A DNA stretch of 64,000 nt, taken from the NCBI RefSeq assembly GCF_008729015.1, contig NZ_RKSM01000001.1:620001-684000 (forward strand). Reading direction: 5' to 3'. Made by a program: the position numbers and the translations under genes. The notes under the pieces were generated by a model. That model was not told where the DNA came from. It did not search any database and worked only from the letters and a program-made list of their open reading frames with translations. The stretch comes from Haloarcula sp. CBA1129 (GTDB lineage: Archaea > Halobacteriota > Halobacteria > Halobacteriales > Haloarculaceae). The number at the start of each line of letters is the position of its first letter. The first letter of the stretch is position 1. Positions 20,038 to 23,536 of this stretch are shown piece by piece.

Positions 20038-20781
20038 CTACGGTTGTCGGCTGGTGCTAGCTGCGAGCGCCGCCACCGCGGCGAGTGCGGCGAGTGCGGC
20101 GACGGTCAGCGCTATCGGGAGTGAACCGTCTGCCCCGGTCGTCGACTGGTCGCCGTCGCCCGCGGCATCGCCCTCTGTGGTACCCGCTGGCTCGGCTGTG
20201 GCCTCGCTGGCGGGTGACGGGGCTTCGGTCACGGCGGCCCCTGCCTCAGTCGGTTCGCTCGGAGAGACTGCGAGCACTGCCGGCTCGGTCGTCGGCTCGA
20301 CTGCGCCGCCGCCGTCGGCGTCGACCTGACTCGATGCGACAGTGACCCGCGCCTCGCCGCCGTCGACGCCGGTGAGCGCGACTGTCGCGAGCGTCACATC
20401 GGTAGCTCCGGGTTCGACTTGCCCGTCGAGGTCAGCTGCCTCCAGCGTGACTGTCCCACCGTCTGAGGCAATAACTGGGTCGGTCGTGAGCCCGAGGCGG
20501 CTGGGGTAACTCGCGCCTTCGAACCGGGCAACCGAGGGGTCGTCGACCGAGAGTTCGAGCTGATAGCCGGCCAGTCCGTCCGGCGCGCTCGTCAGGACCA
20601 CTGGAACAGTCGTCGTCTCGCCGGCGGCGATGGAACCGGTGTCGATGCTAATTGTCGGCGTGGTCTGCCCTGCAGCGAGCGCGGGGGCCGTCCCTGTGAG
20701 GAGGACGAGCGCGACGAGCGCAAGGGGGCGGCTGGCGGTTCGGACGCGACCGCGTACGGAACAGGTGGTATCGTCGGTCAT
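20038..20781 (-). CDS. Membrane-anchored cohesin-domain protein
   Basis: 247 residues. A Sec-type signal (ALVALVLLTGTAPALA) is followed by one cohesin-like beta domain (about residues 42-170: TISIDTGSIAAGETTTVPVVL...DPSVARFEGASYPSRLGL...GATDVTLATVAL). A Pro/Thr/Glu/Ala-rich linker then leads to a C-terminal hydrophobic helix (SLPIALTVAALAALAAVAALAA), making it a cell-surface protein. The domain is visibly homologous to the cohesin-like module in the adjacent PhoX protein, which also carries a dockerin. It probably displays or tethers dockerin-bearing proteins. Confidence 0.85.
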   Translation of the reverse strand: MTDDTTCSVRGRVRTASRPLALVALVLLTGTAPALAAGQTTPTISIDTGSIAAGETTTVPVVLTSAPDGLAGYQLELSVDDPSVARFEGASYPSRLGLTTDPVIASDGGTVTLEAADLDGQVEPGATDVTLATVALTGVDGGEARVTVASSQVDADGGGAVEPTTEPAVLAVSPSEPTEAGAAVTEAPSPASEATAEPAGTTEGDAAGDGDQSTTGADGSLPIALTVAALAALAAVAALAASTSRQP

Positions 20782-20825
20782 TGTGTTGCTGTATCGAAAG
20801 ATGAGAGAGGACTCGGTCGCTGTCG

Positions 20826-23492
20826 TCAGTTGACCTCTTCGTAGAGCGCGGTCACGTCCGCGAAGTCGATCTTGCCGTTCTCGTTGAAGTCGTATGCACC
20901 GGTGTTTAGCTGGATACTGTCGGAATCCATGTTCGAGAACAGGACCTGCACGTCCTCGTAGTCGAGACGGCCGTTGCCGTTGAGGTCCTCGAAGTGGCCG
21001 TCGCCGTCGGGGTCGGTCGGCGCGGCGTCGCCGACGACTGTCTGTGGGCCGCCAACGACGATGCCGTTTCGCGTCTCTGCTTGGATGTCGGTCCCGCTCT
21101 CGTCGTCCATTTGCTCGACAGAGACGGTCAGGTCTGCCGTGCCACCGCCGTTGGCGCGCACGTCGAGCGTTGCGAGTGACACGTCCATCGCGCCGGACTG
21201 GACGTTCGTGTTGACATCGGCAACACGGATCGTCGCCGACGAGCCGTCGTCGCTGATGGTGCTTTCGGTGAGTCCGAGCGCATCCGGGAAGGAGACACCA
21301 GTGATAGATGCGATTTCGGGGTTCGAGACGCTGACGGTGAGCCGAGCGCCGGAGAAGCCAGCGGGGAGCGACGAGGCGGTCAGCGGGACGCTGCCCGTCG
21401 ACCCGCTCCCGACCGCGACGGAGTTGGCGCTGACGACGACGTTCGGTTGGTAGACGTAGAGGCCGTCGTTCGGGTAGGAGCGGGCGGGGCCGCCGAAGCC
21501 GTCCTCGCAGCAGAGCACGCGGCCGTCGCGCATCGTGTAGACGTTGTCGATGTTCCGGAGCGCATCGTTCGCGTCTTCCGGGGAATCAGTGAAGTCCGGG
21601 CCGGTGATGACCGGTTCGAGCGTCGAGACGTTGTAGTCTGACTCCAGCACGCCACGGTAGACGACGCCGCCGTCGACGCGGTCCATCTGGATGTCGCCGG
21701 TGTTGTCCACGAGCGCGTCGTTGAACTCCGAGATGCCGAAGTAGATGAAGTCGCCGGGCTGGGAGTCGTCGACGCTGTCGACACCCTCGGCCTTGTTGAA
21801 CTCGATGGATGCACCGATTTCCTTGGCGGCCGCGCGGGTCTCCAGAAACGGGACGCGCCGGAGGTCTTCGTCGACGCCGTCGGGGCCGTTCGCCTCGTAC
21901 TGCTCGGCCCACTCGACGATTTCCTCGTTCGTGATGTAGTTTCGGTTCCCGTTCTCGATGACAGATAGGTCGGCCTGCTTGATTATCTCCTCGGTCACCT
22001 CGTCGCCCGCTTCCCAGTCGGCGTGGGCGCTGAGGTAGTCGGCCTGTGTCACGTCGTCGTACTCGGCGACCCAAGACTCGACCTCGCCGTTGGTGGCGTG
22101 GCCGAGTTCGATCCACTCGATGTCGAGCGGGGTCTGTGCGGGGGAGTTCCGGTCGCCGGCTTCGGCGACGTTGGCCGCGTCGTTCGTGATCTTCGGCGCG
22201 TACAGCGTCCCGGCGACGTCCATCGGGTCGTCGTACTCCGGAATCGGCTCGTCGGCGACGAACTTGTAGATGCCCTTGCTATCGCCGTCCGAGCAGCCGT
22301 AGACGGTCCGCTGGTCGCCTTCGATGTCGGGTGCCTCCCACGAGGCCCGCCCCATCACGTAGTACTTGACCGCCTCGGGTTCGTCAGCGGTCGGCTCCCG
22401 GAAGTCGACGAAGTAGCCGTAGCGGTACGGGTTCGGGTACACGTCGTCGATAAGCGTCGTGTCGAGGTTCTCGTCGTTCCCCTGATCGTCGCGCTCCGCA
22501 CCGAGGTAGTACGCGAGGAATTCGACACCGGTCAGCGCCCAGTAGCCCTGCGGGCCGAAGTTCGCGTCGAGGTCGCCGCGCTCGGCGTAGGACTCGATTG
22601 CGCCCGAGATCTCGCTCGGGTTCGGCCGGTTCCAGAACTGACAGCCGCCGATGAGCCCCTCGCCCGACCCCGCCTCAACGATGTCGCTTACCGTCGCTGT
22701 CAGGCTGACGCGGGGGTGTGCGTAGTTCTCTTCGGCGGAGATCATCGTCTCCCACGGACTGAGATCGCCGTAGCAGTTGATCCGCGTCCCGCCGTGTTCA
22801 CGGAGCGACTCGGTGTTGGTCAGGTTCATCGCGTTCTCGGTATCCGCGCTCCACTCGCCGTTCTCGTCCTGACTGAGCGGGACTCGCGAGACGCAGCCGG
22901 GGCTGTTCTCCCAGTTCGTGAACAGGTAGCCCTCGGTCCCCGCGTCGTTGGTCGAGACGAACTGGTTACAGTCGGGGTTCGTCGCCGCGCCGCCGTACTG
23001 GGTGCCGGCGAAGTTTTCCTGTGTGATCTCCGTCCCGTCTGGCGTCTGGACCACACCGAGCCGCTCTTCCCCGCCGTTGATCGGTTCGCGCCCCTGCACG
23101 AGGATTTCGTAGTCACCGGCCGCGGACCGAACCCGACGCTGTTTCTCCTCAGTGTCCGGAATCCCCACCTCCGGGAAGTCGTCGTTACTCCCGTCGAACT
23201 CGAACTGGAAGCCGCTGAAATAGCCCACTGCGGCCCGTTCGAACGGCTCGGGGTTCTCTCCTTCCGGGTGCTGGAGACTGTACAGAAGTGACCCGTCCTC
23301 GAAGACGAACGGCCCGGTCACTTCAGCGCCGAACGCCGTTGTCGAGAAGCGCTTGAGACTCCCGGCGACGCTCGGTGCGCCGGGTGTGTCTGATTCGTCG
23401 ACCTCTTCGCCACTTGCCACGCCGATGACGCTGGCCCCAAGCGCAGCAGCCACCGACTGTGAAAGCACCTGCCGTCGAGTGAAATCGACCAT
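20826..23492 (-). CDS. phoX: PhoX-type secreted phosphatase with cohesin and dockerin modules
   Basis: 888 residues. A twin-arginine signal (FTRRQVLSQSVAAALG) exports the folded enzyme. Residues of about 50-680 form a PhoX/DUF839 propeller, a Ca/Fe-dependent alkaline phosphatase family. A cohesin-like module follows at about 686-815, then a C-terminal dockerin (about 827-888) with two F-hand calcium repeats, DLNGNGRLDYED and DFNENGKIDFAD, each with ligands at positions 1, 3, 5, 9 and 12. It leads a three-gene operon; the next gene encodes a membrane-anchored cohesin. The enzyme probably scavenges phosphate from organic esters outside the cell. Confidence 0.92.
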   Translation of the reverse strand: MVDFTRRQVLSQSVAAALGASVIGVASGEEVDESDTPGAPSVAGSLKRFSTTAFGAEVTGPFVFEDGSLLYSLQHPEGENPEPFERAAVGYFSGFQFEFDGSNDDFPEVGIPDTEEKQRRVRSAAGDYEILVQGREPINGGEERLGVVQTPDGTEITQENFAGTQYGGAATNPDCNQFVSTNDAGTEGYLFTNWENSPGCVSRVPLSQDENGEWSADTENAMNLTNTESLREHGGTRINCYGDLSPWETMISAEENYAHPRVSLTATVSDIVEAGSGEGLIGGCQFWNRPNPSEISGAIESYAERGDLDANFGPQGYWALTGVEFLAYYLGAERDDQGNDENLDTTLIDDVYPNPYRYGYFVDFREPTADEPEAVKYYVMGRASWEAPDIEGDQRTVYGCSDGDSKGIYKFVADEPIPEYDDPMDVAGTLYAPKITNDAANVAEAGDRNSPAQTPLDIEWIELGHATNGEVESWVAEYDDVTQADYLSAHADWEAGDEVTEEIIKQADLSVIENGNRNYITNEEIVEWAEQYEANGPDGVDEDLRRVPFLETRAAAKEIGASIEFNKAEGVDSVDDSQPGDFIYFGISEFNDALVDNTGDIQMDRVDGGVVYRGVLESDYNVSTLEPVITGPDFTDSPEDANDALRNIDNVYTMRDGRVLCCEDGFGGPARSYPNDGLYVYQPNVVVSANSVAVGSGSTGSVPLTASSLPAGFSGARLTVSVSNPEIASITGVSFPDALGLTESTISDDGSSATIRVADVNTNVQSGAMDVSLATLDVRANGGGTADLTVSVEQMDDESGTDIQAETRNGIVVGGPQTVVGDAAPTDPDGDGHFEDLNGNGRLDYEDVQVLFSNMDSDSIQLNTGAYDFNENGKIDFADVTALYEEVN

Positions 23493-23526: not shown

Positions 23527-23536
23527 TTTATAATAG
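23527..23536 (-). promoter_or_regulatory. TATA box of the phoX operon
   Basis: On the minus strand CTATTATAAA lies about 39 nt before the phoX ATG. It would give a short leader of about 12-15 nt. An imperfect palindrome (TGAAATAG-TGC-TATTTTTTCA, about 23606-23627) further upstream could be an operator; no phosphate-control site can be proven by eye. Confidence 0.55.

Follow-up and report, generated by a model that had tools for sequence, protein, structure and literature searches.

Using a combination of methods (profile searches, structure prediction, fold comparison and genome surveys), we analysed a 64,000-nucleotide stretch of the Haloarcula sp. CBA1129 genome (assembly GCF_008729015.1, contig NZ_RKSM01000001.1, positions 620,001 to 684,000; hereafter the window, whose own numbering is used below). 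It encodes a PhoX-family phosphatase bearing a cohesin and a dockerin (PhoX-CohDoc) and, directly downstream, a membrane-anchored protein bearing a second cohesin (the anchor). From the module identities given by fold prediction, the topology deduced from the sequences, the pairing of the two genes, the cohesin-dockerin cassette shared with other enzymes and a dockerin constraint linked to the anchor, we propose, with a probability of about 0.72, that the dockerin of PhoX binds the cohesin of the anchor, which would hold the phosphatase at the cell surface. In the proposed mechanism, the twin-arginine translocation (Tat) pathway would export PhoX, the Ca2+-loaded dockerin would bind the cohesin of the neighbour-encoded membrane protein, and the latter would stand on the membrane by its C-terminal helix (by an archaeosortase-type PGF-CTERM tail in Halorientalis), its cohesin outside. 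The phosphatase would be kept at the surface, so that the freed phosphate would be released beside the importers. We infer from these data the physical binding, the tethering, the Ca dependence and the use of a second socket. This second socket would be the cohesin of PhoX itself (CohX), which would most probably receive a dockerin from a further phosphatase (another PhoX, a PhoD or a 5'-nucleotidase with the same cassette), a plausible role to which we give somewhat less than an even chance; head-to-tail chains through CohX are possible.

The two genes, whose positions agree with those in a preliminary description of this DNA, lie on the minus strand, as do all features given below. The PhoX-CohDoc open reading frame (20826-23492; 888 amino acids) is followed after 44 bp by that of the anchor (20038-20781; 247 amino acids), an adjacent same-strand gene in 76 of the 82 genomes with PhoX-CohDoc. 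The 888-amino-acid protein comprises, in this order, a twin-arginine signal (FTRRQVL; residues 1-28, 23409-23492) at the start of the PhoX domain (residues 1-683, 21444..23492), a 130-amino-acid beta module (CohX; residues 684-816, 21045..21443) and a C-terminal double F-hand module, the type-I-like dockerin (residues 826-888, 20829..21017), with its Ca-binding loops 1 (DLNGNGRLDYED, Tyr at position 10; 20952..20987) and 2 (DFNENGKIDFAD; 20856..20891). The 247-amino-acid protein comprises a signal peptide (20671..20781), a beta module homologous to that of PhoX (CohA; residues 41-174, 20260..20661), a Ser/Thr/Ala/Glu-rich linker, a C-terminal hydrophobic, predicted transmembrane helix (20059..20115) and a short tail. 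The window belongs to a genome of 4.05 Mb, and the closest relatives of its PhoX (about 95% identical) are those of Haloarcula amylolytica and H. sebkhae.

Several results point to a PhoX-family phosphatase. Pfam PF05787 (PhoX) matched the 888-amino-acid protein (E 6.5e-17), and the family profile matched the Pseudomonas fluorescens PhoX structures 3zwu/4amf (E 1e-19). In this profile match, C240, E386 and D402 aligned with C179, E273 and D292 of the P. fluorescens enzyme, and these three residues are invariant across 18 haloarchaeal and bacterial homologues; both the family match and the conserved metal-site residues were thus found. We take C179 and E273 to be metal ligands. The match to the PhoX structures of the PDB yielded no alignment for the equivalents of R385, E387 and D479; the active-site residues of the enzyme include D292 and R385 (PMC11098088). 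The haloarchaeal protein resembles bacterial PhoX (3zwu) and PhoD in its catalytic family and aligned metal-site residues. None of the bacterial PhoX homologues that we retrieved bears the cohesin-dockerin cassette and, to our knowledge, neither do the solved bacterial PhoX and PhoD enzymes.

The identity of the modules was addressed by sequence and by structure. Pfam PF00963 (Cohesin) gave 18-20 bits on the anchor, below the gathering score of 24.1 (E 0.0007-0.003), and no match on CohX, so that sequence hidden Markov models (HMMs) alone leave the cohesin identity open. This shortfall is probably a sensitivity limit, because some relatives match at E<0.1 (8 of 24 anchors and 4 of 33 CohX-dockerin rows; best 5e-6). 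Searches of the PDB with both single sequences returned nothing useful, and the anchor profile matched no PDB sequence, so the cohesin question was settled by fold comparison only. AlphaFold models were built from native alignments and each was compared with the PDB by Foldseek, the top 50 matches being inspected. All 50 were cohesins for CohA (pLDDT 94.3, best E 2.8e-9) as well as for CohX (pLDDT 90.5, best E 4.5e-11), and the non-cellulosomal archaeal cohesin 2xdh of Archaeoglobus fulgidus ranked second for CohA (TM-score 0.78) and tenth for CohX. Both models are all-beta, with a jelly-roll fold assigned through their similarity to solved cohesins, and the two modules are homologous (35% identity, E 2e-22).

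As to the dockerin, Dockerin_1 (PF00404) covers residues 835-886, with 24.4 bits in a six-frame search of the genome and 19.7-21.9 bits on the protein or its fragment (cut-off 22.9), and it matches 31 of 33 relatives. A profile that includes the PhoX dockerin weakly matches the solved dockerins 1daq, 2mte and 6kgc (E 0.003-0.02). Both Ca loops are intact, their ligand positions D1, N3, N5 and D12 being invariant in a 33-row alignment, and a helix follows each loop in the AlphaFold model, as in a type I dockerin with two F-hands. The fold models thus confirm both beta modules as predicted cohesins, and the repeats with their Ca loops confirm the C-terminal module as a predicted dockerin. The preliminary description, which had proposed two homologous cohesin-like modules and a C-terminal dockerin with two repeats, is borne out on these points. 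The HMM check that it recommended gave dockerin scores on either side of the cut-off and no cohesin score above it, and the ordinary Ig-like folds that it had considered did not turn up among the top matches.

One could still view these modules as Ig-like and EF-hand appendages that serve stability or Ca binding, beside an unrelated surface protein and with no mutual binding. The weak Pfam cohesin scores, together with the EF-hand families that match about as well as Dockerin_1, speak for this view, but it conflicts with the exclusively cohesin fold matches, with the 76/82 adjacency and joint absence of the two genes, and with Halovivax sp. KZCA124, where these module families make up a clear set of scaffoldin, anchor and dockerins (see below). 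We consider it highly improbable.

The membrane anchor of the second protein, also part of the preliminary description, agrees with the hydropathy profile, which shows one hydrophobic segment for the signal (residues 20-38) and another for the C-terminal transmembrane helix (residues 223-241). An N-terminal hydrophobic segment, a cohesin, a linker and a C-terminal transmembrane helix occur in that order in 23 of the 23 anchors examined, and the Halorientalis homologue carries a PGF-CTERM. A surface-anchored single-cohesin architecture is thus present by sequence, with a putative role in the receipt of dockerin enzymes.

The association between PhoX-CohDoc and the anchor was evaluated in two sets. 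First, in a scan of genome contigs (70 loci), the anchor adjoins 23 of 30 PhoX-CohDoc genes and none of 32 PhoX genes lacking the full cassette (Fisher p 3.4e-11, uncorrected for kinship). Both traits undergo six changes on the PhoX tree and are concordant in about four of five independent pairs, opposite in none; the sign test is not significant, five pairs being too few to reach 0.05. Second, in a class-wide set of 394 Halobacteria genomes, which overlaps in part with the first set and in which PhoX-CohDoc was assigned by frame length, 82 genomes hold PhoX-CohDoc and 76 of them hold the anchor downstream on the same strand, at a module-to-module spacing of 101-379 bp. No PhoX-type anchor was found away from a PhoX-CohDoc gene in this second set, except at a contig edge. 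An intact anchor is missing in six of the 82 genomes. In one of these (G267, locus L272, C2:780500-789500), two PhoX-CohDoc genes stand in tandem ahead of an anchor whose coding sequence is divided between two overlapping frames (by a frameshift or a sequencing error); tandem PhoX-CohDoc genes also occur in four other genomes. In the other five, searched down to E 0.001, the only cohesin is that of the enzyme, as it is in six anchorless genomes of the first set. The dockerin and the anchor are both missing in Haloarcula pellucida, which keeps CohX. The pairing of PhoX-CohDoc with the anchor is not accidental. It is also worth recording that in four Halorubrum loci the PhoX domain shows 75-84% identity and the cohesin no more than about 37%, a pattern that would fit an exchange of the cassette cohesin.

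The dockerin itself carries a trace of this pairing. All rows with an anchor next door have Tyr at position 10 of its first repeat, as do three of three PhoD rows; of the seven anchorless rows only one has it, the other six showing G, R, D or H. We presume, by analogy with clostridial dockerins, that position 10 is part of the recognition surface, and it is a likely specificity position. Furthermore, the ratio of dockerin to PhoX distance is 2.41 in the anchorless clade versus 1.07 in anchored pairs at a similar PhoX distance, and that of cohesin to PhoX distance shifts less (2.62 versus 1.97). These data support a dockerin constraint that tracks the presence of the anchor. Tethering by the neighbour's cohesin, as the preliminary description had it, hence gains from the gene pairing, the joint absence and this constraint; the binding would follow from them by inference.

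Several points weigh against this tethering. First, the Pfam score of the anchor cohesin stays below the threshold, and the activity of the 888-amino-acid phosphatase is predicted from its sequence. Second, the dockerin persists in several lineages that have no anchor at all, and must therefore be tolerated by itself. Third, all but one of the seven anchorless rows belong to a single clade, so that the evidence for constraint amounts to one or two events, not seven. Fourth, dockerin distances covary more with CohX (partial r 0.66) than with CohA (0.17, Mantel p 0.016), which may reflect the joint exchange of one cassette, and which leaves room for dockerin binding to CohX.

This stronger covariation feeds the main rival to tethering, namely that the PhoX dockerin binds its own CohX or that of another PhoX, giving a closed clip or a homopolymer that the anchor cohesin would cap or anchor secondarily. 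Both modules do lie on one chain, and the anchorless genomes keep CohX and the dockerin with no other cohesin. Yet it is where the anchor, not CohX, is missing that the dockerin drifts faster and loses Tyr10; H. pellucida keeps CohX without dockerin and anchor; and the strong partner reported for the A. fulgidus dockerin is the neighbour's cohesin. Self-binding is in our view improbable, albeit less so than the appendage explanation.

The cassette is not confined to PhoX: loci L100, L102 and L104 encode PhoD phosphatases (Pfam 1e-108) that carry it too. We searched the class sample with a cassette profile built from PhoX and PhoD rows (threshold E<=1e-45, the members not all being scanned singly). 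The 111 matches comprise 87 PhoX-like proteins (by frame length), 10 PhoD, 2 5'-nucleotidases, 5 SNases, 5 choice-of-anchor-I proteins and 2 others. No PhoX-type anchor lies next to the PhoD, 5'-nucleotidase or choice-of-anchor-I cassette genes of this sample, and 11 of the 12 genomes with such genes carry the PhoX anchor. The PhoX anchor may thus be common to other phosphatases.

These distributions, as well as the PhoX and PhoD dockerins of KZCA124, which form one class distinct from the approximately 14 dockerins of its glycosidase cluster, favour an extension of the tethering proposal, compatible with it, in which PhoX, PhoD, 5'-nucleotidase and choice-of-anchor-I proteins would assemble on the anchor and on each other's cohesins. 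The co-occurrence may however follow kinship, the exceptional genome (G279, a draft) has a PhoD-CohDoc without the anchor, and the SNase forms have an anchor of their own; we rate such a shared dock at close to an even chance. A bolder and rather doubtful version is a haloarchaeal "phosphatasome". Because each phosphatase carries the same cassette, PhoX, PhoD and 5'-nucleotidase, which have unrelated folds, would chain socket-to-plug from the one anchored cohesin encoded behind PhoX, without a scaffoldin, the enzymes being their own scaffold. As for the SNases, they are secreted proteins of 1131-1157 amino acids (with a longer start in one of the five loci) that combine the cassette with an adjacent cohesin anchor, apparently the same two-gene plan applied to a nuclease.

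Halovivax sp. KZCA124 holds PhoX-CohDoc with its anchor, PhoD-CohDoc and a separate glycosidase cluster. The latter (L196:5180-11470, L196:11730-12515, L197 and L198; G171:C1:1618000-1668000) is cellulosome-like, with a 2096-amino-acid GH5 protein bearing ten cohesins, a 261-amino-acid cohesin anchor with a C-terminal hydrophobic helix, and its dockerin proteins, including GH5 and GH81 enzymes. Its scaffoldin cohesins are 70-96% identical to one another, 57-70% to their own anchor and 24-32% to the phosphatase cohesins, and dockerin loop positions 10-11 are T-T or V-T in most dockerins of the cluster, versus a Tyr in PhoX and PhoD. These identities and loop residues argue that a single cell contains two distinct plug-and-socket classes, one of which is common to PhoX and PhoD. 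The Natronoglomus paper lists such clusters and gives the dockerins a role in substrate binding, without mention of cohesins (PMC10963439). Another extensive assembly system occurs in a genome of the same family (G045, loci L200-L204; 2.7 Mb, one contig), with at least 40 Dockerin_1 matches (75 candidates), 13 cohesin modules, proteins with two or three cohesins each, and dockerin-bearing enzymes, for example GH10 and a GH39-like protein. A further genome (G064, L205:3605-12093) encodes a GH5-dockerin protein, a GH5-Fn3-cohesin-dockerin protein, a Tat-signal protein with five cohesins and a dockerin, and a cohesin anchor.

Of the known systems, the A. fulgidus AF2375/AF2376 pair (2xdh) comes nearest. 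It is likewise archaeal, with a dockerin protein, an adjacent cohesin gene and a cohesin fold. The A. fulgidus dockerin protein presumably also bears a cohesin; we know of no enzyme attached to this pair and of no role for it. The haloarchaeal form adds an enzyme and an anchor: its carrier is a phosphatase with a Tat signal, and its partner has a C-terminal membrane anchor and is conserved over many genera. According to PMC9705933 (citing Voronov-Goldman 2011), the ORF2375 dockerin and the cohesin of its neighbour ORF2376 bind strongly and specifically in vitro. The haloarchaeal pair would also work like the anchoring scaffoldins of the OlpA/OlpC type, which offer a single surface cohesin to a dockerin enzyme, and 3ul4 and 4dh2 are top fold matches of CohA. 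It differs from them in that a transmembrane or PGF-CTERM anchor replaces SLH, a phosphatase replaces the glycosidase, and the enzyme itself bears a cohesin. It is not a cellulosome, since no glycosidase is involved and no multi-cohesin scaffoldin was found in the source genome, in which the clear matches to the cohesin queries are only CohX and CohA.

Archaea were said to lack large scaffoldins. In anaerobic methanotrophic (ANME) archaea, the available text of PMC9012536 describes dockerins on secreted proteins and scaffoldin-like proteins with up to five cohesins; it names transporter binding proteins as common carriers and does not report a rule of an enzyme with an adjacent anchor. Cohesins and dockerins were recognised in archaea as early as 1999 (Bayer et al., as quoted in PMC9012536), with no clear biological role. 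Our search of the open literature, which left out most subscription papers, found no paper that links cohesins or dockerins with archaeal phosphatases. The preliminary description did not include the A. fulgidus precedent for the architecture, nor the recurrence of the cassette on PhoD, 5'-nucleotidase and a nuclease. If our proposal is correct, the archaeal cohesin-dockerin pair can be assigned both an enzyme and a partner gene, conserved over dozens of genera; it would be located at the cell surface, and its job there, which is open to test, would be to capture phosphate in brine. Cohesin-dockerin assembly would then extend from carbohydrates to phosphorus. Such systems would also supply salt-tolerant binding pairs, and the pair is present in a culturable Haloarcula.

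Two further elements of the source genome deserve mention. A conserved element (TATTATAAA / ATTATAAA; 23527..23535, minus strand) precedes the start of PhoX by about 40 bp. It occurs at this distance before 20 of 30 PhoX-CohDoc genes, 14 of 32 other PhoX genes and 7 of 12 PhoD genes, versus about 4-5% of control open reading frames. Its identification as a Pho-regulon box is unsupported, because the source genome contains seven copies of the element, no more than of its reversed control, and PhoX is the only gene that starts about 40 bp from one; it may simply be a shared TATA box. The other dockerin of the source genome (L106:257-7290, C1:1128000-1142000) is located towards the N-terminal end of a large protein with Ca repeats, the frame of which seems to be interrupted by a transposase gene, and adjoins, on the opposite strand, a gene for a divergent cohesin-like protein that has a hydrophobic helix at its C-terminus.

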